Assembly (NCBI GenBank): GCA_963924555.1
Contig: OZ004588.1
Coordinates: forward strand, 6,669,205 to 6,733,204
Reading direction: 5' to 3'
DNA: 64,000 nucleotides
DNA from: Crambe crambe
Taxonomy: Eukaryota > Porifera > Demospongiae > Poecilosclerida > Crambeidae
Shown here: positions 30,390 to 63,652 of the stretch, in pieces
Layout of the letters: every line of letters begins with the position of its first letter
Numbering within the stretch: the stretch's first letter is position 1
Notes under the pieces: generated by a model
What the model was told of the DNA's origin: nothing
Database searches by the model: none
The model's input: only the letters and a program-made list of their open reading frames with translations
Position numbers and translations under genes: made by a program

Positions 30390-30423
<34 letters not shown>

Positions 30424-32463: not shown

Positions 32464-32466
32464 CAT

Positions 32467-32499
<33 letters not shown>

Positions 32500-35190: not shown

Positions 35191-35211
35191 CATCAAACTT
35201 GTTTGATGCGC

Positions 35212-39651: not shown

Positions 39652-39665
39652 ACAAGAGACAGTTG

Positions 39666-39684: not shown

Positions 39685-39686
39685 AA

Positions 39687-40017
39687 TGTAGAGGACCCGG
39701 AGCGGGAGTTTGCAAGTATATTAAATTTTAATTGATAGAATAACAAACGACACTGACTAGAGCACAAATTCTCAACTAACTATCCAGTTCAACTAAGCTC
39801 CTATTTATACAAAAAGTACTAAAACAAGAAAAAACACGCACAACCAAGTAAAACAGGAAAAGATATGCACAAAACCAATAACCACTATCCCATTACATAA
39901 TGCACAAATGACAAATCTAGAAACAAGAAAAAGCCTGTCTCAACAAAAAGCACACACAGCACAAAAGTAATTAATTAATGAAAATGATTGCACAAACTAA
40001 CCCATCAATCCATTACA
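39687..40017 (-). repeat. 5' LTR of the retrotransposon
   Basis: 331 bp, same ends and sequence as the LTR at 34,841-35,171, and followed by the second ACGTG at 40,018-40,022. It should contain the element's promoter. Confidence 0.92.
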
Positions 40018-40373
40018 ACGTGCCATAATTATTAATTACTTATTAGTGGCTATGAATAATTGCCCGCACTAGCTATGGCTACTTGTTATTTCAACATAAA
40101 TTTTGTTGTAACAACAAACAAACATCTTTCGTGCTACTGTATTATTTTTTCAAAAAATGTGATTTATTATTTTGAACCCCTGGGCCCTAATGATAATACT
40201 AATGCAATAATGTGTGTATATGGGCCTGGATAAATATAGTGATAGACACACTTTCAAAGTTCACAAAAACATGGTAGCTACAAACATCTAGTTAGCTACT
40301 AAATAACTAATTATGACACACTTCACACTTTATTGTTGTCCGATAAATGGTTTCGTAGTCTTCAACCTCATAG

Positions 40374-42158
40374 CTAGTCAAGCAAGAGAAACTTGAGTAG
40401 CTTTGAATAAATGGTATCAAGAGGCACTGAAGAATCAGCTGTCTCACCAGTTTCTTTATCTCTTGCAGCATCTGATTCAGAACCAACTAGAAACCTGAGG
40501 AACTCATTATCTCCTTCGATTCCAGCCTTAGGACTAAACCCCCTCATAAACTTCTTCATAAATAACTTAAAGATCGATTGAAGAATTTCTTTGCCTTCTC
40601 GATCTTCATCTGTGTCAGTTTTACTAGGACTTGGTATCAATCTACTAAATCCATTAATTAAATTGAGTAATGTCCCCGCTAAGTTCGAATCCCTTTGATC
40701 TTTAACAATATCATATCCAGAAGGTAGCCATTGGGACACTCTCTCTCCTGTAGACTCGTCCAATTTCAATGGATCTACTTGCATGTAACGTTTCATTTGA
40801 TTCGCCATCTTATCGGCTGAAGATTGCTGCATACTTCCAGTAGAATCATCCACAGGCATGTAGCGTTTCATTTGATCTGCCATCTTGTTGGTTGGTTGTG
40901 CACTTCCTGTAAATTTCATTCGATCTGCCATCTCATTTGGTTGTGTACTTCCTGTAAATTTCATTCGATCTGCCATCCTGTTGGTTGGTTGTGCACTTCC
41001 TGTAAATTTCATTCGATCTGCCATCTCATTTGGTTGTGTACTTCCTGTAAATTTCATTCGATCTGCCATCCTGTTGGTTGGTTGTGCACTTCCTGTAAAT
41101 TTCATTCGATCTGCCATCCTGTTGGTTGGTTGTGTACTTCCTGTAAATTTCATTCGATCTGCCATCTCATTTGGTTGTGTACTTCCTGTAAATTTCATTC
41201 GATCTGCCATCTCATTGGTTGGTTGTGTACTTCCTGTAAATTTCATTCGATCTGCCATCCTGTTGGTTGGTTGTGCACTTCCTGTAAATTTCATTCGATC
41301 TGCCATCCTGTTGGTTGGTTGTGTACTTCCTGTAAATTTCATTCGATCTGCCATCTCATTTGGTTGTGTACTTCCTGTAAATTTCATTCGATCTGCCATC
41401 TCATTGGTTGGTTGTGTACTTCCTGTAAATTTCATTCGATCTGCCATCTTGTTGGTTGGTTGTGTACTTCCTATAAATTTCATTCGATCTGCCATCTCAT
41501 TTGGTTGTGTACTTCCTGTAAATTTCATTCGATCTGCCATCTCATTTGGTTGTGTACTTCCTGTAAATTTCATTCGATCTGCCATCTCGTTGGTTGGTTG
41601 TGCACTTCCTGTAAATTTCATTCGATCTGCCATCCTGTTGATTGGTTGTGCACTTCCTGTAAATTTCATTCGATCTGCCATCTTGTTGGTTGGTTGTGTA
41701 CTTCCTGTAAAATCATCCAATTTCAACAAATTCATGAGATATCTTATTCCTTTGTTGGTTGATTGCTGCATATTTAGCTTATGTGACAAACTGTTTTGAG
41801 CATAGTCACTTAAGAGCTTCAAGACACTTCCAGCTAACTTGGCATCTTGTTCCTTTTCAGCTTCCTCTAACCATGGGGATCTTGGCATCATGTCACCAAA
41901 GCTTGGTATCTTCTTGAACGATTTAAGCAGGTGAAATAGACTGAAGTTATTCGGTGTACTGAAGTTGAAGGTTGCATTAAATGCTGCTTTGACCAATTGC
42001 TTCAACTTTTCACGCTCAATGGAGGCCAATTCATCCTTGAATTCTTGCTCAATTATTTTAACAAATAATTGTTTCTTATTGTCTTCTCGTACAGTGGGTG
42101 CGGAATAGCCCACAATGAAAAAAGTTCCAATAACCAGAAGAAAAGCAAGCTTATGCAT
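40374..42158 (-). CDS. Secreted precursor with 17 tandem MKFTGS...MADR repeats
   Basis: Single exon, 594 aa. Signal peptide MHKLAFLLVIGTFFIVGYSA, pro-segment KQLFVKIIEQEFKDELASI, and the block GSVLKLLSDYAQN as in paralogs. Then 17 units of 15-16 residues of the type MKFTGSTQPTNEMADR (variants A/T, E/R/K, with or without one Thr), then two MKRYM(P/Q)VD units like those in the 32.7-kb gene. The C-terminal part has AGIEGDNEFLRFLVGS (family AGV.RGN.FLELL motif) and ends VPLDTIYSKLLKFLLLD. Repeat copies are near identical in DNA, so array length is probably polymorphic. Each unit has a single MADR/MADQ site but no dibasic site, so it may be a structural repeat. Promoter-like CTGCATTTAAA (inverse) at 42,265-42,275. 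Confidence 0.8.
   Translation of the reverse strand: MHKLAFLLVIGTFFIVGYSAPTVREDNKKQLFVKIIEQEFKDELASIEREKLKQLVKAAFNATFNFSTPNNFSLFHLLKSFKKIPSFGDMMPRSPWLEEAEKEQDAKLAGSVLKLLSDYAQNSLSHKLNMQQSTNKGIRYLMNLLKLDDFTGSTQPTNKMADRMKFTGSAQPINRMADRMKFTGSAQPTNEMADRMKFTGSTQPNEMADRMKFTGSTQPNEMADRMKFIGSTQPTNKMADRMKFTGSTQPTNEMADRMKFTGSTQPNEMADRMKFTGSTQPTNRMADRMKFTGSAQPTNRMADRMKFTGSTQPTNEMADRMKFTGSTQPNEMADRMKFTGSTQPTNRMADRMKFTGSAQPTNRMADRMKFTGSTQPNEMADRMKFTGSAQPTNRMADRMKFTGSTQPNEMADRMKFTGSAQPTNKMADQMKRYMPVDDSTGSMQQSSADKMANQMKRYMQVDPLKLDESTGERVSQWLPSGYDIVKDQRDSNLAGTLLNLINGFSRLIPSPSKTDTDEDREGKEILQSIFKLFMKKFMRGFSPKAGIEGDNEFLRFLVGSESDAARDKETGETADSSVPLDTIYSKLLKFLLLD
40875..41735 (-). repeat. In-frame 45/48-bp tandem repeat inside the 594-aa gene
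   Basis: Units contain 'cctgtaaatttcattcgatc' followed by 'tgccatc' on the plus strand. The length alternates between 45 and 48 bp, always a multiple of three. This keeps one antisense frame open as well, which is a by-product. Confidence 0.95.
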
Positions 42159-43024
42159 AGCTATCTCTTAATTGGAAAAGAATTTAGCAGCACAATTGTG
42201 GCAATAAGGTGGAAATGAGTTTATAGCTAGCAAAATAGCTATGTAGCTATAATACTGATTTAGTCTGCATTTAAATAGTCAGAGTCAAAGTGAAAATATA
42301 TATTCAATGTTTCTTAACAGTGCAGACAATGTTTATATTGAAGAAAAGAAGTTAGCATAAGAAAGAAATTGTTTTGGTAAGTATTTATTGTGTCATTTAT
42401 CCCCTAGAAAAAATAGTCCTTTTCAAGGGGATGTAGGATTTAGATAACTGTGGCCATTATTAGGCCCTGCCATTATTATATTATTCCCAATTTCTTTCCT
42501 TTTATTCTATTCTTTTATTCTCAAAAAGTTGGTATTATTCCCCCCAAACCTCTAATCATTCCGGCAAGAAAGGCTATTATTCCATCAAATTCTATAGTGT
42601 GACAGTAAAACTATGTCATATTATCACTGTAACATGTGAGGATGCCATAAAATTGCTGGAAAGAATGGGGAAAAAACACATTTTAGGGACAGGAATCTCT
42701 GCATCCATCGCAAGAGTTTACCTTTATTGATAGAAGAAAGATACTGATCAAAATTCTTTAATTCTAGATGAGAGAGACATTCTGTGGTTCAAAAGAAGCA
42801 GCACCCTTACATGGATTGGTTTGTAACATGCTAAATCAGATTCTCTTGGGCATTTCAATCTATCCAGAAGGCAAGCAACAGCTCTTGAACTGGAATATCT
42901 TCAGAAGCCATTGCAGGCCAAGCTATGCAAGCTCAGCTATTCTAGCAATACCAACAAAAATAATATCAATAGCCAAACCAATTTAGCTAATTATCCCCCC
43001 AAACTTTCCAATTATTCTAGAATT

Positions 43025-43390
43025 ATTCTATTATCGAGAGTGCGTTATTCTCTAAGTAGGGATGGCGGGTCAAAGGTCATAAGACTGTATAAACTAAAAA
43101 CTCTTCTTCTCTTCTACCTTTATTCTACAAGTTCTCAGAAGGCTACAGTGAATTATTACATCTACAAAGAAGAGAGGAGAATGTTCGAAAACCAAAAATT
43201 CATTCGCTAACATAAGAAAAAAACGAGTTCTAAAATTGACTTTTGTTCTTTTTCTTTATAATAATAAGGATAATAAATATAAGATCGACGTACCGACTTA
43301 CTGGCTATAGTCATCAAAACTCTGCTTTGGCCATCTGTTAGAGCGGCACCTAGAGGCTGATCTTTTGCTATTAGTTTTAACTAAAGCGCT
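43025..43390 (-). mobile_element. Dispersed element copy without minisatellite
   Basis: The reverse complement of this stretch matches both flanks of the minisatellite at 18.5-20.4 kb as one continuous unit ('aacgagttctaaaattgact', 'gccatctgttagagcggcac'). It has no coding content. Confidence 0.75.
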
Positions 43391-43659
43391 ATTTCACAAA
43401 TCAGTGATATCGATAGCATACTGCAACGCAGCAAGAAGTGTCAAGAAGATCATCAGATAACAATAAATAATGATTAAACTTACATTCAATTTCAAGCACT
43501 AAAAAAAGGATAGAAACAAGTGAGCGCAAAAAATTTCTTCTGAATAAAAAGTTAAGTAGGGATAGCCTAAAATCTAACTGGGCTGTATAATGTACTGCAG
43601 CCTCGTATGAAAAAATCCCTACATTTACAACAGCCCATAGCTAGCTATTTGTCATAGAG

Positions 43660-43995
43660 GCGTTAGGCTTATTTAAATAGATTGTAGGCGCTTGGCTTAA
43701 CTAAGTGCTTGTGGTAAGTATTTACAGCTTTCTATGTATGTAGCTTCCAGGTTGGAACCACAACTTACATGACCCTTGTCTCCAACAGCAACATCAAGCA
43801 CTGGAGCCTATCAGCTGCTCACTTGCTCACTGTCAAAATGCAGCACATTGCTATAGTAGTCGTTGTAGAGGCTCTAGGCTTATTTAAGTACTTTGTTACA
43901 TATAAACTCAACAGCAAAATTTTTTAAAGAGTTGTAGCACTAACTTGCTTGTTCGCTCGCTGTCAAAATTAATGTTGCACATTGCCCTAGTAACT
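43660..43995 (-). repeat. Inverted copy of the 24.5-25.0 kb element
   Basis: 'aagtgcttgtggtaagtatt', 'ctccaacagcaacatcaagc' and 'cgctcgctgtcaaaattaat' correspond to the complement of parts of 24,540-25,000, present once here. Confidence 0.7.
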
Positions 43996-44127
43996 GACAA
44001 TAACAAGAGCTAGCACATTAAATCTGTTACAAAAATCAATAGCTACAAAGTTCAATGTTCAAGACAGACAAGTTGAGTTTAAATACAGTGGGTTAACTGT
44101 TCTTTTAAGACTGTTGTCTTCAACCTC

Positions 44128-44667
44128 TTAAACCACAAAGAATGGCTGACTTGGGTATGAATATCCACGAAAGTATGCCTTCCTGTTTTCTACAGCAGCA
44201 TGTGTACCACCTTGATCAGAGAGGAGCTCCAGAAACTGGTTATGTCTTTCTATTCCAGTCTCAGGACCGTAGGATTTAGATGCTTCAGTACTTAAAAAAT
44301 TTAAAAACAGGGTTAATGTTTTCTTTAAAATTTTCTGATCTTGAGGCAAATTATGACTCTTAAACACAGTATCAAGGAATATCTTTATAAAATTTAAGAA
44401 TGGACGGAAGAATCTGTGAAATAAAAACTTGTCAGTAAACATTTGCTGCTCCTGTGATTCAGGAGAGAGTCTGTTTTGAGCATAATTGTTGAGTAGGTTC
44501 AGGAAACTTCCAACTAGTTCCTCAACATCCTTTTGTTCCATTTCTGCTTCTTCAATCCCACGACGAAGACCAAGTGACATTTTTTCACTGCCTTCTTGAG
44601 TAGTGGGCTTAGAATAACCCACAATGAATACTGACACTATCACCAGAAGAAGAGAAAACCTTTGCAT
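44128..44667 (-). CDS. Secreted precursor, IEEAEMEQ group
   Basis: Single exon, 179 aa. Signal peptide MQRFSLLLVIVSVFIVGYSK. The acidic segment GIEEAEMEQKDVEELVGSFL and LNLLNNYAQNRLSPES are shared with the 46-51 kb genes. Then comes a Phe/Leu-rich middle (FHRFFRPFLNFIKIFLDTVF) probably helical, then the family motif TGIERHNQFLELLSDQGG. The tail after ENRK reads AYFRGYSYPSQPFFVV, aromatic and Pro-containing, in the place of the Pro/Tyr-rich tails of the paralogs. Unlike most relatives it does not end in Gly-Arg. Upstream, AAAATCCCAAAG (44,817-44,828) and GCATTTAAA (44,798-44,806), inverted, give the shared promoter pair. Confidence 0.75.
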   Translation of the reverse strand: MQRFSLLLVIVSVFIVGYSKPTTQEGSEKMSLGLRRGIEEAEMEQKDVEELVGSFLNLLNNYAQNRLSPESQEQQMFTDKFLFHRFFRPFLNFIKIFLDTVFKSHNLPQDQKILKKTLTLFLNFLSTEASKSYGPETGIERHNQFLELLSDQGGTHAAVENRKAYFRGYSYPSQPFFVV

Positions 44668-46017
44668 GTTACGTAGTGACTTGATAATATAGTTATATGC
44701 AAATATTGTAACTGTACGTATAAGTAGCTCTTTCGATAGATACTCTCCCAGTTGATCTTAAAAAGCTAGAAAGGAATCTAACAATGTATTGTGTTTGCAT
44801 TTAAACTTGAACATATAAAATCCCAAAGTTTTTTTCCGCTATAGCCGTTGTCTTTCTCGTTATATTCTTTTTGGAAACTTTAAAGTCATTGTTGTTATTT
44901 CAGTTACAGTGTTCAAAGGTGTGCATGTACTTGTGGTTTTTAGCTGGAGGACATTATTTTGAGGAACTTCAAACTCAAACTCCATGGAACCTCTTGTAAC
45001 TGGCACATCTGTAGTATATACTGTACTTGCATGCAAAAGAACCACAAAAAACAACTTCGGGGATCATCTCTAAGCAAAAAATGGAATGGCATCATAATAC
45101 CCTAAACACTGCATGGGCCTGTAAATGAGAGCAATTGAAAACTTCATGTTAAGAATAGCTATATCTAGTGCATATTGTGTGCATTGAGAACTAACTTTTC
45201 ATTATTAACTGCCGAGTCAACTGGTTGGTTTATTCAGTACAAAAAGTGACTTGTGGATACTAAATGAAATGAGCATCCACAAGTGAAAGTCTTACATAGT
45301 GTCAATCCCTGTTAAATCTTATTACTTTTTTGCTTGATCTCGTAGCTAATGCTTGTGAGTCTCCTGATCGAGAGCTGGAGGGTACGTAGGAATAATAAAG
45401 TTGAATACAACTAAACACCTCCTCAGAGGAATGACTTTGACATGATAATATAATGCAAGATAAAGAGACTTACTCACGCGACTAAATGTAATGACACACA
45501 CACAAAAAAAAAGAGGTTGGGGGGGGGGGGGGGGGGGGGGGCATGACAACTTGCTTTGATGGAACTGTCTCATACATTTTGATTTCTATGAACCTGTCAC
45601 ATCATCATCATGGGACTGATAGCTAAATGAATAGAACTAGCTGCGTATGTTAAAACTGTAGCTAGTACATAATAGTGGGTTTTTTTTATAGATTTATTAA
45701 TTTGTCAAACTACTTGTATTTTCAAATCATGAAAAAAATATTTGTAGCTGCTACTGCCTATTAAACACAGAGACAAAAGATGTAGCTACGTATTTGCATT
45801 CACCTGGCACCTTGATCATTCACTATAACTAACTATTATAGCTTTCTCGATTTTTCTAATGCATGAACTCTCTCTGCTGGTATTTGAAATTTGAAGTTTG
45901 GTAAAGTTATATATATGATCAAGGTGCCAGGTGAATAGACTTTTAGTAAAATTATTTAGTTCCATGCAAGGTTATTAGTGACACACAAGACTAGTCAATT
46001 CTTCTTAACTGCTGTAA
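44668..46017. other. Intergenic
   Basis: Promoter of the 44-kb gene, a 23-bp G run at 45,519-45,541, and an imperfect duplicated text 'gatcaaggtgccaggtgaat' (45,915) with its complement at 45,800. No gene is supported. Confidence 0.5.
45519..45541 (+). repeat. 23-bp poly-G tract
   Basis: Uninterrupted G run after 'aagaggtt'. Confidence 0.9.
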
Positions 46018-46590
46018 TCATCTTCCACGATAAAAAGATGGACGTTGGTATGGGAATGACGGGTACAAGTTAGGGGATATTCCACTAAAGACTTGTTTCA
46101 TATTTTCTGTGGAAGCATTGCAACCACCTTGACCAGAGAGAAGCTTGAGAAACGGGTTGCCTCTTTCAACTCCAGCCACTTGACTGTAGTTTTCGGACAC
46201 TTTCATCATCGCATTTAATAATTCAAACATCCATTGCTTCCACCCATAAAGCAAAGTATGGTCCTTTTTATTTTTGAGCATTTCCCTCATAAAAGGTACA
46301 AAACATTTAGTAATAAAATCTTTAATTTTTATGCTCATTTCTTGGGCTTTGATACCTCTGATCAAAGTTTGCTGCATCTGTAGCTCAGGAGATGGTCTAT
46401 TTTGAGCATAATTCCTCAGCAGGTTCAGGAAATCAACCAATTTCTCGATATTTTTTTGTTCTGTTTCTGCTTCTTCTATGCCATGATGAAGAGGAAGTAT
46501 TATTTTCTCACTGCCTTCTCGAGTAGCAGGTGCAGAATAACCCACGATAAAAACTGACACCATCACAAGAAGAAGATAAAGCTTTTGCAT
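46018..46590 (-). CDS. Secreted precursor with Pro/Tyr-rich tail ending in GR
   Basis: Single exon, 190 aa. Signal peptide MQKLYLLLVMVSVFIVGYSA, then PATREGSEK. Acidic block GIEEAETEQKNIEKLVDFL and LNLLRNYAQNRPSPEL, as in neighbours. The middle differs from the paralogs (Lys/Met-rich, MREMLKNKKDHTLLYGWKQW). Family motif VAGVERGNPFLKLLSGQGG. The tail after ENMK is Pro/Tyr/Phe-rich (VFSGISPNLYPSFPYQ, then RPSFYRGR). The final Gly-Arg would give an amidated end after removal of Arg. Shared promoter pair, inverted: CTGCATTTAAA at 46,673-46,683 and AAAATCCCAAAG at about 46,693-46,704. Confidence 0.75.
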   Translation of the reverse strand: MQKLYLLLVMVSVFIVGYSAPATREGSEKIILPLHHGIEEAETEQKNIEKLVDFLNLLRNYAQNRPSPELQMQQTLIRGIKAQEMSIKIKDFITKCFVPFMREMLKNKKDHTLLYGWKQWMFELLNAMMKVSENYSQVAGVERGNPFLKLLSGQGGCNASTENMKQVFSGISPNLYPSFPYQRPSFYRGR

Positions 46591-47992
46591 ATTTGTGACT
46601 TAATGATTATATCAATGGCAGATGTGCGTACAATAGCTCTTTCAAGTTATTTTCCCAGTTAAATTAGAACAGCTGCATTTAAACTTGGACGCAAAATCCC
46701 AAAGTTTTCACCATAGCCACTGTCTTTCTATTTCATTGTTATTGTTATTTCAGTTACATATTCAAAATGTGTGCATGCAGTTTTTAGCTAGAGGACATTA
46801 TTGAGAAACCTCTAATTATCACGATTGTAGAAACTCTTTACTGTAGCTACTTGGAGTTAGATACGTAGCATTATGCATGCAAAATACCTCTGAAACAACT
46901 TTGGGATAAGTTCTAGTCTGTCTTTCTTAATCATCAAACATGAATATAATTATATAGTAACAAGTGAAATCTCTACACACATTTAGCTAAGCCCAAGTGG
47001 AATAATGTACAGCACTTAATTATTAAGGAGGGCACTTTGTAATGCATGCATGCTTATGGTTTACTAGACTAACCCCATGCAAGTATGGTCACTCCTTCAT
47101 CACCGTTAGCTACTGCAAGATAAAAATCACACATATGTCACTTTTAACTACTGACGTATGGCTTATTCCAAGAAGGAATGTACGTACAAGCACGCGTGAC
47201 ATTGTGTGATTTTGTGTCATTAACTTTATGGTTGTGTGGATTGAGAGGGTTAGCTTTTCATTTCTTACAGCCAACTAAGCAGAAGTTTCTTCAGAGATAA
47301 AGAGGAAGGTCATCACAGTGCATAGGTGATGGAACAGGTCAGGCCAATCAGGCCCAGGCCTGACCAATATTTTGGGGAAAATAAGTTGATTTATAATGAT
47401 ATATCGGTACTATCAATCAATAACAAAAGAAATTGTCCTATAGATGGTCAAGTATAGCAAATTGTATAGTGCTTCAGTGGTATGGGGGATTACATTTCAA
47501 TTTCAGGCCTAACCAATCATATCTTGCTTCCAACACCTCTGTCAGTATGAAACTGGTCTTAAATTTATCAAGCCATTACTACATGCTTTGTTACTATAAC
47601 ACTTTCTTGCCACTTCATTTGGCCAATTTTTCATACTGTCTTTAGCTCTGCTGAGCTGAAAATTTGGTGTGGAGATGGCTAGTCCAACCATTATAGAGCA
47701 CACGACAGAAGTATTGGACAAAAGCACTTAATTATTTTTATTTCATAAGCTTGACAATGCTGCCACTGCCAACAAAATTAATTTTCAAATGTGAAATTTC
47801 CTGCCATACAGCTGCATAATAATAATGAGGACACAGAAAAACACAACATCAGTAAGTATGGTAAAATATAAATACAGCTAGGTTCAATGTTCTGTACATG
47901 GTTACTATAGCTACAGTAATAATTATAGCTAATGGCATCACAAGTTATTCTATGATAACTGTTACTACTGCAGCAGTTTTGAATATTAGTCG
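46591..47992. other. Intergenic
   Basis: Promoter of the 46-kb gene. A copy of the dispersed 'aggcccaggcctgaccaata' repeat is at 47,320-47,380. A weak open frame at 47,433-47,727 overlaps on both strands and is unsupported. Confidence 0.5.
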
Positions 47993-48586
47993 TTATCTTC
48001 CACCTCTATAAAAGTATGGGAGCAATGGACGTCTGTGAGAGAATGACGGATAAGGGGAACCGAAAGAGACTTGCTTTCTCTTTTCTGTGGAAGCATCAGA
48101 ACCACCTTGACCAGAGAGGAGCTCAAGAAATTTGTTGCCTCTTTTAACTCCAGCCTCTTGACCGATGGATTTGGATGCCTCTATCATCATATCTAGAAAA
48201 ATGGATGAGAATCGCTTGAATATTTGTTCATCAGGAGACAAAGTCTGTTTCTTATCAAATAAACTTTTGGCATATTCCTTCATTAAAGTCAACATTTGAC
48301 GGAAAACATTAGGGAAATCATCCATTTCTCGAGCTTCAAGCCCTCCGGTCAATGTGTGCAGCACCTGTGGTTCAGGAGACGGTTTGTTTTGAGCGTAATT
48401 GTTCAGCAGGTTCAGGAAACTTCCCACCGATTCCTCGATATTTTTTTGTTCCATTTCAGCTTCTTCAATGCCATGATGAAGAGAGGGCAACACTTTCTCA
48501 CAATCACTGTCTTCTCGAGTAGCGGGTGCAGAATGACCCACAATGAAAATAGACACCATCACCAGAAGAAGAGGAAGCCTTTGCAT
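47993..48586 (-). CDS. Secreted precursor with KR site and Pro/Tyr-rich tail ending in GGR
   Basis: The start at 48,586 gives the family signal MQRLPLLLVMVSIFIVGHSA; the frame is open 51 bases further but those residues are not signal-like. Product 197 aa. Acidic block GIEEAEMEQKNIEESVGSFL, then LNLLNNYAQNKPSPEP. Middle: helical, Lys-rich (MLTLMKEYAKSLFDKKQTL). Motif EAGVKRGNKFLELLSGQGG. Then STEKRK, a dibasic processing site, followed by a tail SFGSPYPSFSHRRPLLPYFY ending RGGR. Processing at KR and amidation at Gly would give a Pro/Tyr/Ser-rich peptide of about 25 residues. Promoter pair, inverted: CTGCATTTAAA 48,695-48,705 and AAATCCCAAAG 48,718-48,728. Confidence 0.8.
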   Translation of the reverse strand: MQRLPLLLVMVSIFIVGHSAPATREDSDCEKVLPSLHHGIEEAEMEQKNIEESVGSFLNLLNNYAQNKPSPEPQVLHTLTGGLEAREMDDFPNVFRQMLTLMKEYAKSLFDKKQTLSPDEQIFKRFSSIFLDMMIEASKSIGQEAGVKRGNKFLELLSGQGGSDASTEKRKQVSFGSPYPSFSHRRPLLPYFYRGGR

Positions 48587-49035
48587 ATTGAAGATTATTA
48601 ATGAGATGACACAATAGGTATGTAGTTCTCTCTCCAATTGTTCTCCCAGTTAAAGTGTAGCTATGGTACGAATAACTAGTGGCATGTATTGCAGCTGCAT
48701 TTAAACTGGAAACACAAAATCCCAAAGTTTTTCATCATATAGCCACAGTCTTTCTATTATTCCTTTGTTCTTTTAAACAACAGTGTTCAAAAACCTTTTT
48801 ATTATTGTTTGGTTAGTGTTATAGTGTGCATGCACTTGTGGTTATTAATTAGATTTGAGAAACCTTGAATCCATTGATTTAGAAACTCTATGGAATTGTT
48901 ACAACCCCCCCCCCCCAAAAAAAAAAAAAAAAAAAACTGGGCCTGAGAAGTTACAATAGCGAGCTACTTAAAATAGTTACATGTGAACAAATTTAGTTTC
49001 ATATTTTACACATGCTTGAATGATGACCTTTGTCT
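48587..49035. other. Promoter region and A/C homopolymers
   Basis: 5' flank of the 48-kb gene, duplicated at 50,723-51,050. Poly-C then poly-A at 48,905-48,936. Confidence 0.55.
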
Positions 49036-49382
49036 TCAATCTCTGATGGTGGATGATAAAAACCTGAAAATAAGCCTCATAAGCTGTTTGATTTCTCCTT
49101 TCTTTTTTGGAAAACTTATCAGTAGTGTACAAATATCTTGAACCGCTTTATTATCTTCAACTTTTCTGGATGAAGGTCTCTGCATTCGTGGTTCAGGAGG
49201 CAACCTATTTTGAGTGTAATTGTTCAGTGAATTCAGTGAATTTCCAGTCAACTCCTTTATATTTCTCTGTTCTGTTTCTGCATCTTCAAAATTATTGAGA
49301 TCAGCAAATACTTGTTTTCCCGCACTATCTTCATGTTTTGTGTGTAGGGAATGGCCCTCACAAGAAGAACAAGCATTTGCAT
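49036..49382 (-). pseudogene. Broken copy of the 51.3-kb precursor gene
   Basis: The sequence aligns with the 133-aa gene at 51,325-51,726: the start MQMLVLLV, the block NSLNNYTQNRLPPEPRMQR and the end KGEIKQLMRLIFRFLSSTIR are present. A deletion in the signal peptide region shifts the frame (49,330-49,375), and further deletions remove part of the middle. The final Gly is changed to Asp. It is next to the 48-kb gene just as 51.3 kb is next to 50.1 kb. Confidence 0.8.
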
Positions 49383-50135
49383 GGTTGTGACTTTAAAGAA
49401 GCTTTGTAAATGATGGAAGATGTGACAAGATGTGTGCACGATAACTTGTGGTTTTCAGCTATAGAGGACATTACTTTGAAAAACATCTAGCTAACCCATG
49501 ATTGTAGAAACTGTTTAGCTGCTGTAGCTGCTCTTGGAGTTAGGTAACATTATATACATGCAAAATAATACCTCCAAAACAGCTTTATAGTTTGTGTTAA
49601 AGTACAATACATATAGCTAGACTACATTGGTCCCCCAACTTTTATTTTGCTTCCTCCACCTATGATATAACAGAGGTTTACCAAGTAGCAAAAGAATTTA
49701 TTGAACTAAATGAACGTAGGAAGAATTATTTCGGTATCTATTAGAACTTACTGTTACATATGTACATAACTTGTTTGTGTTGACTGAATTTTTGACTTAA
49801 TTAAATCACAACTATTGTCGGGTACGCATGGTTTGGGGTTGGCCCCCTCCCCCCCCCCCCCCCCCCCCCCCCCCCAGGTAAATTTATGTTCCTCCAATTA
49901 TGCTTCTTTCATACTATCTTTATAGCTCCCAATAGGACAATGTTATCAATAGCACTTATTAAAGTTCATAAACTTGAAAACACAACATACCGTACAGTAA
50001 GTATGGCAAAATATAAGTACAGGTCCAATGTTCTATCCATGGTTACTATAGCTAATGACACACAAGGTAATTCTTCTTAACTACAATAACTGTTACTGCA
50101 ACAGTTTTGAATAGTCAGCTACGTAAGTATGACTG
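49383..50135. other. Intergenic
   Basis: No gene seen. A 27-bp C run is at 49,849-49,875. 49,900-50,100 resembles 47,800-47,990, in agreement with a segmental duplication. Confidence 0.5.
49849..49875 (+). repeat. 27-bp poly-C tract
   Basis: Uninterrupted C run before 'aggtaaatttatg'. Confidence 0.9.
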
Positions 50136-50722
50136 TTATCTTCCATAGTATGGGAGTGATGGACGTCTGTGTGAAAATGACGAATAAGGGGAATAGGCTT
50201 GCCTTCTCTTTTCTGTGGAAGCATCTGAACCACCTTGACCAGAGAGGAGTTCAAGAAATTGGTTGCCTCTTTTAACTCCAGCCTCTTGACCAAAGGATTT
50301 GGATGCCTCTATCATCATATCTAGAAAAAAAAAAGAAGAATGAGAAACACTTTTTCACCAGGAGATAAAGTATATTTCTTATTAAATATACCTTTGGCAA
50401 ATTCCTTCATTAAAGTCAAAATTTGACGGTAAACATTAGTGAAATCTCCACTATCATCCATTTCTCGAGCTTCAAGCCCTCCGGTCAACGTGTGCAGCAC
50501 CTGCGGTTCAGGAGACGGTTTGTTTTGAGCGTAATTGTTCAGCAGGTTCAGGAAACTTCCAACAGATTCCTCGATATTTTTTTGTTCCATTTCAGCTTCT
50601 TCAATGCCATGAAGAAGAGAGAGCAACACTTTCTCATGATCACTGTCTTCTCGGGTAGCAGGTGCAGAATGACCCACGATGAAAACAGATACCATCACCA
50701 GAAGAAAAGAAAACCTTTGCAT
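50136..50722 (-). pseudogene. Frameshifted duplicate of the 48-kb precursor gene
   Basis: The first part (50,722-50,321) reads MQRFSFLLVMVSVFIVGHSA, IEEAEMEQKNIEESVGSF, NNYAQNKPSPEP and so on. The second (50,318-50,136) reads MMIEASKSFGQEAGVKRGNQ, FLELLSGQGGSDASTEKRRQ and a Pro/Tyr tail SLPYYGR. The two frames meet at an A10 run (50,324-50,333), where the 48-kb gene has a shorter A run and extra bases. This is a homopolymer-associated shift or small deletion, or a sequencing error. If the reading were continuous it would be a normal member with KRR site and Gly-Arg end. Promoter pair kept (50,837-50,847 and 50,859-50,869). Confidence 0.7.
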
Positions 50723-51324
50723 GTTGTATCGATGGATGATATGTGATGATATACAGTAGGTATGTAGTTCTCTCTCCAATTGTTCTCCCAGTTAAAGTGT
50801 AGCTAAGGTCAGTATAACAAGTGTCATGTATTGCAGCTGCATTTAAACTGGAAACACAAAATCCCAAAGTTTTTCATCATAGCCACAGTCTTTCTATTAT
50901 TCCTTTGTTCTTTTAAAACTGGCGACACAACAGTCTGCAGTGCCATCAAAAACTTTTTTTAGTTTGGTTAATATTCAATGTGTGCATGTACTTGTGGTTA
51001 TTAGATTTGAGAAACCTTGAATCCATGATTTAGAAACTCCATGGAATTGTTACAACCATGCAGATCTTTCTTTTTCATAATAGGATTTAGACAACATTAT
51101 GCATGAAAAAAAGAAAACTGAAAAGACAACTTTGAGATCATACATCTCTATACTAGTTTGTTAATGAATTAGCTACAGCTATAAGCAGTCATATCAAGGT
51201 TATTACAAAAAAAAACTGGGCCTGAGAAGTTACAATACTTAAAGTTATGAAAAGTCCATGTATACATGTACACAAAAAATTGTTTCACATCCTTGAATGA
51301 TTATTATATGTATGACCTTTATCT
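50723..51324. other. Promoter region of the 50-kb locus and spacer
   Basis: Duplicate of 48,587-49,000, with the inverted CTGCATTTAAA and AAATCCCAAAG pair. No gene. Confidence 0.6.
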
Positions 51325-51726
51325 TCAACCTCTGATGGTGGATGATAAAAACCTGTAAATAAGCCTCATAAGCTGTTTGATTTCTCCTTTCTCAGCACTA
51401 TCAGAAGAACTAAATTTTTTGGAAAATTTATCTATAAAGGTCAGTAGTGTACAAATATCTTGAACCGTTTTATCATCTTCAACTTTTCTGGATGAAGGTC
51501 TCTGCGTTCGTGGTTCAGGAGACAATTTATTTTGAGTGTAATTGTTCAGCAAATTCAGTAAATTTCCAGTCAACTCCTTTATATTTCTCTGTTCTGTTTC
51601 TGCATCTTCAAAATTACTGAGATCAGCAAATACTTGTTTTCCCGCACTATCTTCATGTTCAGTGGGCAGGGAATGGCCCGTGATGAGCACTGATGCAGCA
51701 ATCACAAGAAGAACAAGCATTTGCAT
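51325..51726 (-). CDS. Short secreted precursor with basic amphipathic tail
   Basis: Single exon, 133 aa. Signal peptide MQMLVLLVIAASVLITGHSL, cut before PTEHEDS. Family block DAETEQRNIKELTGNLL and NLLNNYTQNKLSPEP, then RTQRPSSRKVEDDK. There is no AGV.RGN motif. After a Ser/Lys stretch (KKFSSSDSAEKG) the protein ends with EIKQLMRLIYRFLSSTIRG, a basic amphipathic segment with a final Gly that could be amidated. The gene is at the end of the minus-strand group and its upstream region faces the plus-strand group. Function unknown. Confidence 0.72.
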   Translation of the reverse strand: MQMLVLLVIAASVLITGHSLPTEHEDSAGKQVFADLSNFEDAETEQRNIKELTGNLLNLLNNYTQNKLSPEPRTQRPSSRKVEDDKTVQDICTLLTFIDKFSKKFSSSDSAEKGEIKQLMRLIYRFLSSTIRG

Positions 51727-53734: not shown

Positions 53735-53745
53735 TATAAATGCAG
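53735..53745 (+). promoter_or_regulatory. TATA-type core promoter box (TATAAATGCAG)
   Basis: 120 bp before the start codon of the 53.9-kb gene. The same TATAAATGCAG, usually preceded by CTGCC, occurs at the same place before the other plus-strand genes. Confidence 0.7.
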
Positions 53746-53854: not shown

Positions 53855-54622
53855 ATGCAAGGGCTTGCTCTTTTTCTTATAGCATCATTCTTCATCGTGG
53901 GCCACTCTGCTCCAGCAGTGCAGAAAAAGGCCTCAAGCAATGGACTTAATTTTGGCTACACCTATCCACTTGCAAAGGAGAAAGCACAGGCTGAAAGTCC
54001 TTTGAGTTTACCATTCAAAAATGCAGAAGAAGAGAGGTTTTTTCCATTCAAGAAAGCGGCATTCAAGAAAGCGGAAGAAGAGAGGTTTCTTCCATTCAAG
54101 AAAGTAGAAGAAGAGAGGTTTTTTCCATTCAAGAAAGCAGAGGCTGAAGGTTGGAATATTGGTTACTCTCGTCCGTTGAAAAAAGCAGAGGCTGAAGGTT
54201 GGAATATTGGTTACTCTCGTCCGTTGAAGAAAGCAGAGGCTGAAGGTTGGAATATTGGTTACTCTCGTCCGTTGAAGAAAGCAGAGGCTGAAGGTTGGAA
54301 TATTGGTTACTCTCGTCCGTTGAAGAAAGCAGAGGCTGAAGGTTGGAATATTGGTTACTCTCGTCCGTTGAAGAAAGCAGAGGCTGAAGGTTGGAATATT
54401 GGTTACTCTCGTCCATTGAAGAAAGCAGAGGCTGAGAGTCCTTTGAGTTTTCCATTCAAGAAAGAGGAAGTAGAGAATCTCCTGGATATGTTAAGGGGTT
54501 TCCGTAAATCACCGGCCAATGCTGAACAAGTCGACCAGATTCCAAGTGGTGGCAAGGGAGAGCAAGCTGATGAGCAGTTTCTTCCACTAATACTTGGGTC
54601 ACTCTATGGTGGCAGAAAGTAA
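53855..54622 (+). CDS. Multi-copy peptide precursor: six KK-AEAE-GWNIGYSRPL units
   Basis: Single exon, 255 aa. Signal peptide 1-18 (MQGLALFLIASFFIVGHS). Residues 20-94 hold Pro/Phe-rich units between acidic and dibasic spacers: SPLSLPF, then FFPF, FLPF, FFPF, each bounded by AEEER or VEEER and KK. Residues 95-190 are six exact 16-residue units AEAEGWNIGYSRPLKK. Then AEAESPLSFPFKK and a C-terminal region with GKGEQADEQ and the apolar FLPLILGSLYGGRK. Dibasic cleavage followed by Ala/Glu dipeptide trimming is the logic of yeast mating alpha-factor precursors; here the likeness is in architecture only. Six copies of one decapeptide strongly suggest that GWNIGYSRPL, or a trimmed form, is the product. 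Processing and receptor are unknown. Confidence 0.85.
   Translation: MQGLALFLIASFFIVGHSAPAVQKKASSNGLNFGYTYPLAKEKAQAESPLSLPFKNAEEERFFPFKKAAFKKAEEERFLPFKKVEEERFFPFKKAEAEGWNIGYSRPLKKAEAEGWNIGYSRPLKKAEAEGWNIGYSRPLKKAEAEGWNIGYSRPLKKAEAEGWNIGYSRPLKKAEAEGWNIGYSRPLKKAEAESPLSFPFKKEEVENLLDMLRGFRKSPANAEQVDQIPSGGKGEQADEQFLPLILGSLYGGRK
54137..54424 (+). repeat. 48-bp in-frame tandem repeat, 6 copies
   Basis: Units start 'gcagaggctgaaggttggaa' and end 'cgtccgttgaagaaa'. DNA differs at only two or three silent positions across copies, so expansion or conversion is recent. Confidence 0.95.
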
Positions 54623-55926: not shown

Positions 55927-56559
55927 ATGCAAGGGCTTGCTCTTTTTCTTATAGCATCATTCTTCATTGTGGGCCACTCTGCTCCGGTGATGCAGAAAAA
56001 GGCCTCTAGCAATGGATTTTCAATTGGCTTTCCCATGTCCAAGGAAATTGAAAACGAAAAGGCTTCAAGCAATGGATTTTCTGTCAGCTTTCCACTTGCC
56101 AAGGAAGAAGAAATGGGAAACAAAAAAGCCTCGAGCAACGGGATTTCTATCAGTTTTCCAATGGAAGCAGAAATGGAAAAATATGACGATATTGTTAAGA
56201 AACTGTTTAACTTCATCCTGGATCGCATTCAACCCAAGGAAGAAGATGCTCAAAGTACTTGGAACATTCCTCTTCCACGTCCATTCAAGAAAGCAGAGGC
56301 TGAAGGCCCTTGGAGCATCGGTTATACTCATCCACTTAACGAAGCAAAAGCTGAGAGCAGTATCTTTTCTCCGTTTCCATCCAAAGAAACAGAAGCAGCT
56401 GAGCAAGTTGAATCACAGACTAATGCTAAACGAGTTAAGCAGATATTTAAGATCCTCAATGGTCTAGGTGGTGGCAAGGGAGAGCAAGCTGATGAGCAAT
56501 TTTTTCCACAACTCATTGGGTCACTCCTTCTCTCAAAGCTTTCCGAAGGAAAAAAGTGA
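55927..56559 (+). CDS. Multi-peptide secreted precursor, type I C-terminus
   Basis: Single exon, 210 aa. Signal peptide MQGLALFLIASFFIVGHSA, then PVMQKK. Three repeats of the ASSNG type follow: ASSNGFSIGFPM, ASSNGFSVSFPL and ASSNGISISFPM, each preceded by KK or EK and followed by acidic Glu/Met spacers. A helical part YDDIVKKLFNFILDRIQ comes next. Then a second peptide set: STWNIPLPRPFKK, AEAEGPWSIGYTHPL and SSIFSPFPS. The WSIGY..PL unit resembles GWNIGYSRPL of the 53.9-kb gene. The end is GKGEQADEQ, then FFPQLIGSLLLSKLSEGKK, with Gly-Lys-Lys as a possible amidation signal. No introns. Confidence 0.8.
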   Translation: MQGLALFLIASFFIVGHSAPVMQKKASSNGFSIGFPMSKEIENEKASSNGFSVSFPLAKEEEMGNKKASSNGISISFPMEAEMEKYDDIVKKLFNFILDRIQPKEEDAQSTWNIPLPRPFKKAEAEGPWSIGYTHPLNEAKAESSIFSPFPSKETEAAEQVESQTNAKRVKQIFKILNGLGGGKGEQADEQFFPQLIGSLLLSKLSEGKK

Positions 56560-57225: not shown

Positions 57226-57960
57226 ATGCAAGGGCTTGCTCTTTTTCTTATAGCATCATTCTTCATTGTGGGCCACTCTGCTCCAGTGGTGCAGAAAAAG
57301 GCCTCGAGCAATGGATTTTCTATCAGCTTTCCCATGTCCAAGGAAATTGAAAACGAAAAGGCTTCAAGCAATGGATTTTCTGTCAGCTTTCCACTTGCCA
57401 AGGAAGAAGAAATGGGAAACAAAAAAGCCTCGAGCAACGGGATTTCTATCAGTTTTCCTATGGAAGCAGAAATGGAAAAATATGATGATGGTGTTAAGAA
57501 ACTGTTCAATTTCATCCTGGATCGCACTCAATCCAAGGAAGAAGATGCTCAAAGTACTTGGAACATTCCTCTTGGAAATCCATTCAAGAAAGCAGAAGCT
57601 GATAATCTTTTGAATATTGGTTTAGTTCATCCACGTCCATTCAAAAAAGCAGGGGCTGAAGGCCCTTGGAGCATCAGTTACACTCGTCCACTTAACCAAG
57701 CAAAAGCTGAGAGCCCTTGGAGTATCAGTTTCAAGAATGCAGAAAATGCAGAGGAAGAGAGTATCTTTTCTCCATTTCCATCCAAAGAAACAGAAGCAGC
57801 TGAGCGAGTTGCATCACAGACTAATGCTGAACGAGTTAAGCAGATAATTAAGATCCTCAATGGTCTAGGTGGTGGCAAGGGAGAGCAAGCTGATGAGCAG
57901 TTTTTTCCACAACTCATTGGGTCACTCCTTCTCTCAAAGCTTTCCAAAGGAAAAAAGTGA
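57226..57960 (+). CDS. Multi-peptide secreted precursor, type I C-terminus (longest copy)
   Basis: Single exon, 244 aa, closest to the 55.9-kb gene. Signal 1-18. ASSNG repeats at 26-37, 46-57 and 68-79 (ASSNGFSISFPM, ASSNGFSVSFPL and ASSNGISISFPM). Then VKKLFNFILDRTQ and an enlarged second set: STWNIPLGNPFKK, NLLNIGLVHPRPFKK, GPWSISYTRPLNQ, SPWSISFKN and SIFSPFPS, separated by AEAD/AGAE/AEAE-like acidic spacers. C-terminal RVKQIIKILNGLGGGKGEQ, ADEQ, then FFPQLIGSLLLSKL and KGKK. At least eight distinct short units could be released. Single amino acid differences between copies suggest paralog diversification. Confidence 0.8.
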   Translation: MQGLALFLIASFFIVGHSAPVVQKKASSNGFSISFPMSKEIENEKASSNGFSVSFPLAKEEEMGNKKASSNGISISFPMEAEMEKYDDGVKKLFNFILDRTQSKEEDAQSTWNIPLGNPFKKAEADNLLNIGLVHPRPFKKAGAEGPWSISYTRPLNQAKAESPWSISFKNAENAEEESIFSPFPSKETEAAERVASQTNAERVKQIIKILNGLGGGKGEQADEQFFPQLIGSLLLSKLSKGKK

Positions 57961-58693: not shown

Positions 58694-59368
58694 ATGCAAG
58701 GGCTTGCTCTTTTTCTTATAGCATCATTCTTTATCATGGGCCACTCTGCTCCGGTGGTGCAGAAAAAGGCCTCAAGCAATGGATTTTCTATCAGCTTTCC
58801 CATGTCCAAGGAAATTGAAAACGAAAAGGCTTCAAGCAATGGATTTTCTGTCAGCTTTCCACTTGCCAAGGAAGCAGAAATGGGAAACAAAAAAGCCTTG
58901 AGCAACGGGATTTCTATCAGTTTTCCTATGGAAGCAGAAATGGAAAAATATGACAATATTGTTAAGAAACTGTTCGATTTCATCCTGGATCGCATTCAAC
59001 CTAAGGAAACGGAGGCTTCAAGCAAGGGAATTTCTATGATCAGGTTTCCACTTGCAAGGGAAGAAACAGGAAATAAAAATATCTCCTACAAAGTTGATTA
59101 TGCTAAGAGATTTATCCGTACCTTTGTTGATCAGATATGTGATATCCTTACTGTCATCTCTAGCACTCCAATGTTAAAGGAAAATCAAATTAAAAATCTT
59201 GAAGCTCAAATCGGTTCCATGGTTCATGCGATATACAAGTTCCTAAGTGGTCTAGGGCGTAGCAGCAACTCTTACCAACCCAAGCCGGAAGAGCAAGCCG
59301 ATGAGCAGCTTTTCCCGGAACTCATTGGGTCATTGATTCTCTCAAACTTAGCTAAAGGCAAAAAGTGA
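58694..59368 (+). CDS. Multi-peptide secreted precursor, type II C-terminus
   Basis: Single exon, 224 aa. The first 110 residues match the type I genes (signal, ASSNGFSISFPM, ASSNGFSVSFPL, and ALSNGISISFPM, then VKKLFDFILDRIQ). After that the sequence differs: a fourth repeat-like unit ASSKGISMIRFPLAREE, then a helical domain of about 70 residues (AKRFIRTFVDQICDILTVIS, NLEAQIGSMVHAIYKFLSGL) with a single Cys. The end is QADEQ then LFPELIGSLILSNLAKGKK. The shared front and last 25 residues with a replaced centre suggest exchange between paralogs. The final Gly-Lys-Lys again permits amidation. Confidence 0.8.
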   Translation: MQGLALFLIASFFIMGHSAPVVQKKASSNGFSISFPMSKEIENEKASSNGFSVSFPLAKEAEMGNKKALSNGISISFPMEAEMEKYDNIVKKLFDFILDRIQPKETEASSKGISMIRFPLAREETGNKNISYKVDYAKRFIRTFVDQICDILTVISSTPMLKENQIKNLEAQIGSMVHAIYKFLSGLGRSSNSYQPKPEEQADEQLFPELIGSLILSNLAKGKK

Positions 59369-59982: not shown

Positions 59983-60075
59983 CAAGCTGCTCTATACTTT
60001 CCCACAGGTGAAGAAGAAGGTTAGCGACGACATTTCATCAGCAGCTATTAACTGTATCATTTCCTCTTCTACCTG

Positions 60076-60645
60076 CTCCTGCGGTGCAGAAAAAGGCCTC
60101 AAGCAATGGATCTTCAATCAGCTTTCCCATGTCCAAGGAAATTGAAAACGAAAAGGCTTTAATTAAGCAATAGATTTTCTGTCAGCTTTCCACTTGCCAA
60201 GGAAGAAGAAATGGGAAACGAAAAAGCCTCGAGCAACGGGATTTCTATCAGTTTTCCTATGGAAGCAGAAATGGAACGATATGCTCAAAGTACTTGGAAA
60301 ATTCCTCTTGGAAATCCATTCAAGAAAACAGAAGCTGAGAATCTTTTGAATATTGGTTTAGTTCGTCCACGTCCATTCAAAAAAGCAGAGGCTGAAGGCC
60401 CTTGGAGTATCAGTTTCAAAAATGCAGAAAATACAGAGGAAGGAGTATCTTTTCTCCATGTCCATCCAAAGAAACGAAAACAGCTGAGCGAGTTGAATTA
60501 CAGACTAATGTTGAACGAGTTAAGCAGATATTTAAGATCCTAAGTGGTCTAGGTGGTGGCAAGGGAGAGCAAGCTGATGAGCAGTTTTTTCCACAACTCA
60601 TTTGGGTCACTCCTTCTCTCAAAGCTTTCTGAAGGAAAAAAGTGA
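60076..60645 (+). pseudogene. Multi-peptide precursor without signal peptide (type I)
   Basis: A deletion joins the 5' leader ('cctcttctacctgctcc') directly to codons after the signal peptide ('gctcctgcggtgcagaaaaa'), removing the start codon and signal. Further in, 'aaaaggctttaattaagcaa' has an insertion that shifts the frame and creates stops, and there is a one-base difference before the C-terminal part (60,430-60,445) and again near 60,600. Downstream pieces keep the known units (ASSNGISISFPM, NPFKK, FKKAEAEGPWSISF, and GKGEQADEQ). Confidence 0.85.
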
Positions 60646-61504
60646 GGCTGCATTGGAGTGTTGAACCAACTATAACTGACTAATATTATTTTGTGTGTGT
60701 CATTATCAAGATTTAAGTGTGCCATTTATTATTAGCTACTCTCATAGTTAGCTATACAATCATGTGAAATGATCAGCCAACTCTGTATAGAATCAAACCT
60801 GATTTAGCTGCCACCCCCCCCCCCCCCCCTTCCCTCTCTCCAGAGTTAGTGTTGTTTTTTTAACCTAAAGATGCATGAAAAAAGTCCCAAAGAGAGGACC
60901 TGCACGATATTAAATGTCATTAATTTTATTCCAAAAAATGCTATGCATTGTCTATGGGAAACAGCAGAGAGTCACGTACAGCTAAATTGTCATGAGACAA
61001 TCAATTATAGACATAATATATAGCTCAAGTAAGCTATTCCTATATAATTCACAAGAGAATCACAAATGCTACTGATATAGTTTTAAAGAATGTTTAAAAA
61101 CACTGATATAATTTCTTTTTCCTTAATAATTGATGGCTATACATAATATATAGCTCAAGTGAGCTATTTATAAGAGAATCACAAATGCAATTCCCAAGCA
61201 TGTGTATAATAGATACTGATATAGTTTTTAAAGAATGTTTAAAAACACTGATTAATAATTGATGGCTGTACATGATATATAGCTCAAGTGAGCTATTCCG
61301 AAAATTATAATTCACAAGAGAATCACAACTGCAATTCCCAAGCATGTGTGTAGATATAGTTTTTTGAAAATGTTTTAAAAAGAATAACAACATTAGCTTG
61401 ATACATGCTGGCTAATTTGAGAGCGTCCCAAACACTAATATTTTATAGTATGTCATGATTGATAGAAAGATTATGAAAATCTTTTGGGGGGATATTTTTC
61501 TCCC
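60646..61504. other. Array spacer with 120-bp repeats
   Basis: Matches other spacers, expanded by the repeat at 61,000-61,390. A C run lies at 60,814-60,829. Confidence 0.65.
61000..61390 (+). repeat. Tandem repeat of about 120-130 bp, 3 copies
   Basis: The unit contains 'tatatagctcaagtgagcta', 'aagagaatcacaaatgcaat' and 'gtttaaaaacactgat'. The other spacers have the unit once. Confidence 0.8.
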
Positions 61505-61646: not shown

Positions 61647-62282
61647 ATGCAAGGGCTTGCTCTTTTTCTTATAGCATCATTCTTCATTGTGGGCCACTCT
61701 GCTCCTGCGGTGCAGAAAAAGGCCTCGAGCAATGGATTTTCTATCAGCTTTCCCATGTCTAAGGAAATTGAAAACAAAAAGACTTCAAGCAATGGATTTT
61801 CTATCAGCTTTCCACTTGCCAAGGAAGAAGAAATGGGAAACAAAAAAGCCTTGAGCAACGAGATTTCTATCAGTTTTCCTATGGAAGCAGAAATGGGAAA
61901 ATATAAGAAACTGTTCAATTTCATCCTGGATCGCATTCAATCCAAGGAAATGGAAAACAGAAAGGCTTCAAGCAAGGGAATTTCTATGATCAGGTTTCCA
62001 ATTGCAAGGGAAGAAACAGGAAATAAAAATACCTTAAGCGATGATGAAGTAGCTCAGGGAGTGATCGGTACTATTGTTCAGGTCATATATAACACCCTTA
62101 CTGCCATCTCTAGCGCTCCCTTTGATGAAAATGCAATTGAACGTTTTCAAGCTGATATTGGTTCCAAGGTTTATGCAATATACAAGATCCTAAGTGGTCC
62201 AGGGTTTAGCAACGACTCTTACCAACCCAAGCTGGGAGAGCAAGCTGATGAGCAGCTTTTCCCGGAACTCAAACTTAGCTAA
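61647..62282 (+). CDS. Multi-peptide secreted precursor, type II, shortened tail
   Basis: Single exon, 211 aa. Signal peptide MQGLALFLIASFFIVGHSA. Units ASSNGFSISFPM, TSSNGFSISFPL, ALSNEISISFPM, and ASSKGISMIRFPIAREE. The type II helical domain follows (VIGTIVQVIYNTLTAISSAP, IERFQADIGSKVYAIYKILS). QADEQLFPEL is intact, but a deletion of about 25 bp joins it to 'aaacttagctaa', so the usual apolar tail and the Gly-Lys-Lys end are replaced by KLS and a stop. The N-terminal peptides could still be made, but the amidated tail is lost. Expression would show whether it is on the way to a pseudogene. Confidence 0.75.
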   Translation: MQGLALFLIASFFIVGHSAPAVQKKASSNGFSISFPMSKEIENKKTSSNGFSISFPLAKEEEMGNKKALSNEISISFPMEAEMGKYKKLFNFILDRIQSKEMENRKASSKGISMIRFPIAREETGNKNTLSDDEVAQGVIGTIVQVIYNTLTAISSAPFDENAIERFQADIGSKVYAIYKILSGPGFSNDSYQPKLGEQADEQLFPELKLS

Positions 62283-62983: not shown

Positions 62984-63652
62984 ATGCAAGGGCTTGCTCT
63001 TTTTCTTATAGCATCATTCTTCACTGTGGCCACTCTGCTCCAGTGGTGCCTCGAGCAATGGATTTTCTATCAGCTTTCCCATGTCCAAGGAAATTGAAAA
63101 CGAAAAGGCTTCAAGCAATGGATTTTCTGTCAGCTTTCCACTTACCAAGGAAGAAGAAATGGGAAACAAAAAAGCCTCGAGCAACAGGATTTCTATCAGT
63201 TTTCCTATGGAAGCAGAAATGGAAAAATATGACGATATTGTTAAGAAACTGTTCGATTTCATCCTGGATCGCATTCAATCCAAGGAAACGGAAAACAGAA
63301 AGGCTTCAAGCAAGGGAATTTCTATGATCAGGTTTCACTTGCAAGGGAAGAAACAGGAAATAAAAATACCTCAGGCTATGTTGATACTGTTAAGGAAGCG
63401 ATCCGCACCTTTGTTGAGCAGATATAATATGAGACCCTGTCAGCTCTCCGGTGCCGTTTACGAAAACTCAAATTAATATGCTTCAAGCAAATATTGGTAG
63501 CCTGGTTCAGGGGTTATACACGATCCTAAGTGGTCTAGGGCGTAGCAGCAACTCTTACCAACTTGAGCCAGGAGAGCAAGCCAGTGAGCAGCTTTTCCCC
63601 GGAACTCATTGGGTCATTGATTCTCTCAAACTTAGCTAAAGGCAAAAAGTGA
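62984..63652 (+). pseudogene. Multi-peptide precursor with frameshifts (type II)
   Basis: The start MQGLALFLIASFF is present, but one G is missing in the codons for VGHS (63,023-63,028) and the QKKA codons are deleted (about 63,045), so the frame is lost. Further shifts occur near 63,338 and 63,425 and a C is inserted near 63,598. The family units (ASSNGFSVSFPL, ASSNRISISFPM, ASSKGISMIRF) and the ends are still readable in pieces. Confidence 0.85.

Follow-up and report, generated by a model that had tools for sequence, protein, structure and literature searches.

Can an animal without neurons carry a gene that is designed for the release of one peptide in many copies? The question is raised by an open reading frame (ORF) of the demosponge Crambe crambe, which lies at positions 53855..54622 (+) of the 64,000-nucleotide stretch of DNA analysed here (the window; C11:6669205-6733204). 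In the part of PMC12166358 that describes the published assembly odCraCram1.1, the genome has 143.20 Mb in 124 scaffolds; C11 corresponds to its chromosome 8 (7.66 Mb). The genome searched in this study has 143,139,886 bases in 119 contigs and must therefore lack, or differ in, a few small pieces. The ORF is a single open frame for 255 amino acids without an internal stop. The original prediction had located six identical GWNIGYSRPL units in it, with KK before each unit and an AEAE spacer, and had pointed out that the animal is nerve-less; the coordinates, the sequence, the exactness of the repeats and the nature of the animal were all confirmed. I consider that the gene product is probably a multi-copy peptide precursor that is secreted, largely disordered, and cut at KK. 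A gene apparently built in this way in a neuron-less animal gives the exact molecules to look for.

The putative signal peptide region (MQGLALFLIASFFIVGHSA) occupies 53855..53911, its cut site being placed by eye. It is followed by a single unit, LNFGYTYPL (53945..53971), which has KK-ASSNG before it and AKEK after it and resembles WNIGYSRPL. Next come SPLSLPF (53996..54016; between K-AQAE and KN), a first copy of RFFPF (54035..54049; between KN-AEEE and KK), RFLPF (54083..54097; between KK-AEEE and KK), and a second copy of RFFPF (54116..54130; between KK-VEEE and KK). Repeat finding and unit comparison placed the six 48-nucleotide units (KKAEAEGWNIGYSRPL) at 54131..54418, and the exact copies of GWNIGYSRPL start at residues 99, 115, 131, 147, 163, and 179. 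SPLSFPF (54437..54457; between KK-AEAE and KK) precedes the tail (54458..54619), which has a conserved ADEQ stretch and short helices predicted with low confidence. All of these features lie on the plus strand. The original prediction had covered neither LNFGYTYPL, SPLSLPF, RFFPF (twice), RFLPF, and SPLSFPF nor the membership of the gene in a tandem family. A TATAAA box is found at 53735..53740 (+), 120 bases upstream of the start codon, and at -139 to -148 in the four open downstream relatives compared, as consensus matches only. Shortly past the gene, a 20-base repeat (TAGCTATTATTACATAGCTA) is present in 6.3 tandem copies (54780-54906).

Do the repeats look like a set of peptides to be cut out? 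Tandem Repeats Finder gave the six-unit array a score of 596 with 98% matches, which excludes a chance origin; variation between the units is confined to two bases and is silent at both. Past the signal peptide, the protein has 12 KK and two RK sites, no KR or RR site, 13% lysine, and 13% glutamate, and the whole precursor is devoid of cysteine. Ten of the 11 internal KK-bounded segments end with Pro-Leu or Pro-Phe, the exception being AAF. With the units collapsed to one, seven Pro-[Leu/Met/Phe/Ile] endings lie at most one residue from a lysine or arginine; 10,000 shuffles gave 0.89 on average and never more than 6. The four downstream relatives show less of an excess, with 4, 4, 4, and 3 such endings where shuffling reached at most 4 in every case, and this weakens the precursor reading.

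The protein might instead remain uncut as a repetitive secreted component of matrix, adhesive, or mucus, with its Lys/Glu-rich repeats acting as a polymer. The AlphaFold prediction, made from an alignment of just 7 sequences, has a mean pLDDT of 36, and the disorder predicted in this way would suit a polymer, as would the content of lysine and glutamate and the existence of a sister ORF with about 18 tandem 16-residue repeats and no KK units. However, the same type of flanks surrounds cores of 5, 7, 10, 11, and 13 residues in the six-unit gene and two relatives, and the Pro-hydrophobic-KK ending is kept across these lengths. Constant flanks on cores of different lengths are easier to reconcile with cutting than with a polymer of fixed period, and the lack of cysteine also argues against a structural role. 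I regard an uncut polymer as quite unlikely. The sister ORF itself (40374-42158 (-), 594 amino acids) has the same type of signal peptide; its repeats have a period of 48 nucleotides at 40866-41711, and the units resemble KFTGSTQPTNEMADRM. Two Pfam matches of this ORF above the cut-off, PDC10_C and Phage_CP76, were taken as repeat artefacts because no stretch passes alone.

Is the six-unit gene a solitary one? It was found to be a member of a tandem family. With up to three mismatches allowed, the window has seven occurrences of the 24 bases that open the ORF, where none is expected. Five more open relatives have the signal peptide of the six-unit precursor in common, four of them downstream and one inverted. 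The downstream relatives, all on the plus strand, encode 210 amino acids (55927..56559; one KKAEAE-GPWSIGYTHPL unit and three ASSNG units), 244 amino acids (57226..57960; KKAEAD-NLLNIGLVHPRPF and KKAGAE-GPWSISYTRPL), 224 amino acids (58694..59368; ASSNG units and ISMIRFPL), and 211 amino acids (61647..62282; a shorter tail). Two broken relatives lie on the same strand, one at 60073..60672 with several frame changes and no start found, and one at 62984..63652 with frame changes. The minus strand has nine more distant ORFs whose signal peptide is similar (26522..51726; start codons at 26902, 28243, 33602, 42158, 44667, 46590, 48586, 50722, and 51726), and one of the nine is probably truncated. 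The six-fold unit looks like an amplified version of the unit that is found singly in the relatives.

The inverted copy lies at C11:6627235-6627903, about 95 kb from the six-unit gene. Its signal peptide is identical to that of the six-unit gene, and it has four units, the first of which reads GWNIVYSRPL. In the protein database, a four-unit protein (P0001) from a contig of 529,602 bases is identical to the inverted copy from residue 16 onward, and a version with five units (P0002) comes from a contig of 1,385,853 bases; the two contigs presumably represent other assemblies of the same species. Thus, the number of units varies, being six in the window gene, four in the inverted copy, and five in P0002. 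Pairwise comparison of the four downstream relatives showed that aligned codons 1 to 90 are conserved in each of the six pairs (dN 0.02-0.04). Past codon 90, one pair has a dN of 0.04 and the other five have values of 0.24-0.69; these rates are rough because gaps are frequent in this region of the alignment. No sign of selection could be read from the repeat units, since the changes are few and the comparisons are not independent.

DNA encoding KKAEAE was found at 18 sites in the genome, 13 in the precursor family and five elsewhere (C6:9016788, C8:2597373, C8:2631793, C16:6635557, and C17:223169, coding for it in some frame); the reversed control gave 0. A Pfam search on nine family proteins, including the six-unit precursor, gave no match above the cut-off, the ORF at 26522 having a weak match to NPFF (12.6 bits versus a cut-off of 27). 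A PDB sequence search gave no relative (best E 0.077). Two protein searches, with 7,997 candidates scored in each, revealed none beyond the gene family itself: one returned three proteins and the other eight at E ≤1, four of which were the window's own. Rfam and tRNA searches found none. The missing selection signal on the units and the restriction to one gene family in these searches both weaken the precursor reading.

The original prediction had likened the build to that of yeast alpha-factor and had proposed that, after a cut at KK, the AEAE spacer is removed by a dipeptidyl peptidase to free GWNIGYSRPL. How far does the comparison go? In yeast, the alpha-factor peptides come after KR and then EA or DA; STE13 cuts past the A, and its motif is XA or XP, as stated in the relevant part of PMC6339444. 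Both precursors have a signal peptide (recognized by eye in the sponge gene), repeated near-identical peptides, and a dibasic site with a short spacer before each peptide, which is KK before each of the six units. To this extent the likeness stands. The spacer does not follow: X-Ala or X-Pro dipeptides stand in alpha-factor and Ala-Glu in the sponge gene, and the dibasic site is KR in the former and KK in the latter. The same part of PMC6339444 gives KR and RR as the KEX2 sites, with KK in a lesser role; the lack of KR and RR sites in the sponge protein weakens the precursor reading.

The register of the spacers decides this point. Units were defined by a pattern of KK, a four-residue spacer starting with Ala or Val, a core, and a Pro-hydrophobic ending; 30 such units were present in a set of five sequences, in which one gene is represented by two versions. 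With a cut behind KK, the dipeptides of the spacers are AE-AE, AQ-AE, AE-EE, VE-EE, AE-AD, or AG-AE, and alanine or proline stands at spacer positions 2 and 4 in none of the 30 units. Thus, an alpha-factor route to GWNIGYSRPL is not supported, and STE13/DPP-IV trimming after KK does not fit the register. The even length of the spacer, four residues, and the presence of DPPIV_N matches at two places in the genome would suit trimming exactly as in yeast. If the cut fell between the lysines, 21 of the 30 units would fit X-Ala trimming, but EGWNIGYSRPL would be the predicted result, and the enzyme would stall on spacers that read AEEE or VEEE. The yeast-type route is, on this evidence, extremely improbable. 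An acidic residue stands directly before the core in 24 of the 30 units; the other six are three ASSNG units and three rows starting with AAFK, which hold an AEEE unit out of register.

Several N-termini are conceivable for the main peptide. The spacer may be kept, giving AEAEGWNIGYSRPL; a cut after the acidic residue may give GWNIGYSRPL; a cut between the lysines followed by X-Ala trimming may give EGWNIGYSRPL; or dipeptidyl peptidase I may trim beyond the start of the core. Dipeptidyl peptidase I (cathepsin C) removes X-Glu dipeptides in secretory granules. By its stop rule, this enzyme would leave the exact core for five of the seven distinct cores, and shuffled cores gave this result nearly as often (P 0.08); with one core per type, three of five were exact (P 0.26). 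The same rule would cut GWNIGYSRPL down to SRPL. Cathepsin C is thus a weak candidate for the trimming enzyme, not significantly above chance on seven cores. The cathepsin C set of this sponge is expanded, with 10 exclusion-domain matches at about eight places (C5 ~6614408-6616980 and C3 ~6687213-6879063). The catalytic domain beside one of these matches corresponds to dipeptidyl peptidase I in the PDB (1.4e-101).

Does the genome have the enzymes that a multi-copy precursor would need? A search for furin/PC and DPP-like enzymes, as proposed in the original prediction, revealed genes of the furin, carboxypeptidase D, and dipeptidyl peptidase types. The convertase P domain has seven matches at six places, one of which lies within a 6,350-aa frame and may be something else. 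One locus combines a P domain with a catalytic domain of the furin type (PDB furin, 2.1e-72; kexin, 2.1e-41), and many Cys-rich repeats were recognized in it by eye. There are 19 matches to Peptidase_M14; two frames are alike, and the one compared with the PDB corresponds to carboxypeptidases D, M, and N. DPPIV_N has four matches at its two places, one adjoining Peptidase_S9 matches, and Cu2_monooxygen has 32 matches in the genome. The 7tm_1 receptor family has 126 matches, many in tandem arrays, e.g., C10:996505-1087788; by contrast, the part of PMC12716839 that deals with bilaterian rhodopsins states that sponges yielded no orthologs of these. Convertases and carboxypeptidases of another sponge, A. 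queenslandica, are covered in part of PMC6850559. The enzyme genes make processing possible and are not proof of it, and a link from any one enzyme or receptor to the precursor would be hypothetical.

It may be assumed that the protein enters the secretory pathway through the signal peptide seen in the sequence, that a kexin/furin-type convertase cuts at KK, and that a carboxypeptidase D/E-type enzyme strips the lysines. Six copies of (AEAE)GWNIGYSRPL and the single related peptides ending with Pro-Leu or Pro-Phe would thereby be released, with the N-terminal spacer kept, lost through a cut past the acidic residue, or lost through a dipeptidyl peptidase. The penultimate proline may shield the C-terminus, which has no amidation glycine. 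The linear peptides would then be freed as small signals or defence peptides; gene duplication would add to their variety and unit duplication to their dose. The precursor reading is favoured by the six exact units, the PL/PF endings, the constant flanks, and the varying unit number, and likewise by the concentration of KKAEAE in the family and the presence of furin-type, carboxypeptidase D-type, and 7tm_1 genes.

Are similar precursors known from other animals? Preprohormones have basic sites C-terminal to each peptide and often acidic residues N-terminal to it, and the section of PMC8638164 on this subject states that such features are known only from Placozoa and Cnidaria. For Nematostella, part of PMC11087051 reports KK cleavage by mass spectrometry, as well as some N-terminal cuts that have no basic residues and are preceded, at a distance of one or two positions, by acidic ones. 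KK is also the site type of the sponge gene, and its cleavage in Nematostella favours the precursor reading. Like the cnidarian and placozoan preprohormones, the sponge gene has a signal peptide, several copies, a basic site after the peptide (10 of 11 internal segments end with PL or PF before KK), and an acidic residue before it (the 24 of 30 units mentioned above). In contrast, glycine for amidation precedes KK in none of the 11 internal segments, and the main unit starts with GW instead of Gln or X-Pro, X-Pro being present in the SPLSFPF and GPWSI cores; no homology with these preprohormones was found. The layout is closer to cnidarian and placozoan precursors than to yeast precursors, and the sponge gene resembles the former in outline without being filed as a member.

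Phoenixin and nesfatin are, to the knowledge of the authors of PMC9004410, the first neuropeptides identified in sponges, as worded in part of that paper. Their sponge precursors are secreted with a predicted release of peptides, as proposed for the Crambe precursor; they are conserved across animals, whereas the latter has no Pfam match above the cut-off. The open-licence literature yielded no account of this gene and none of a multi-copy sponge neuropeptide precursor, and the exact peptide string had no match in open-licence papers. Ribosomal peptide precursors of sponges are already reported for proline-rich cyclic peptides (Lin et al. 2024, as cited in parts of PMC11382151, PMC12858407, and PMC12716839).

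Might the cores be excised and closed into rings like these macrocycles, with defence metabolites as the products? Sponge hosts excise proline-rich cyclic peptides from ribosomal precursors (PMC11382151, in part), and SPLSFPF, SPLSLPF, RFFPF, and RFLPF are short, hydrophobic, and proline-containing. The two kinds of precursors are alike in being sponge-encoded and ribosomal and in having short peptides with proline, but the main core, GWNIGYSRPL, has only one proline. Lin et al. (2024) are said to have described precursors with signal peptides and many repeats each. I consider cyclization unlikely and return to linear peptides cut at KK.

For the predicted peptides, signalling and defence are both conceivable roles. 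Signalling is favoured by the identical copies, the variable unit number, and the many receptor genes; defence is favoured by the proline-rich cyclic peptides of sponges (PMC11382151, in part), the small hydrophobic cores with proline, and the small secreted ORFs nearby. That the sponge has a true multi-copy peptide signalling system, with an acidic residue before and a basic pair after each peptide and a Pro-Leu/Pro-Phe family diversified by duplication, seems rather unlikely at present. If true, the layout of peptide-signal precursors would exist in neuron-less animals beyond Cnidaria and Placozoa. The gene would show either multi-copy peptide signalling without nerves or the same precursor design serving the chemical defence of a sponge.

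Other small secreted ORFs were found around the family. Those at 26522-26902 and 27803-28243 of the window (-) end with an EADEQ stretch and a hydrophobic tail (e.g., LLPILKMILPKLIELI), an arrangement reminiscent of a membrane-active peptide that is preceded by an acidic pro-part. At C11:6637197-6642438 (+), a tandem group of small secreted ORFs (loci L015), each acidic in the middle and ending with a basic tail rich in Cys and Arg, appears similar to host-defence peptide precursors. The window also has a gypsy-type retrotransposon frame of 1,502 amino acids at 35212-39720 (-) with a SCAN-like capsid match. Its Pfam matches run in the order of zinc knuckle, aspartyl protease, integrase, reverse transcriptase, and RNase H, so that the integrase precedes the reverse transcriptase.
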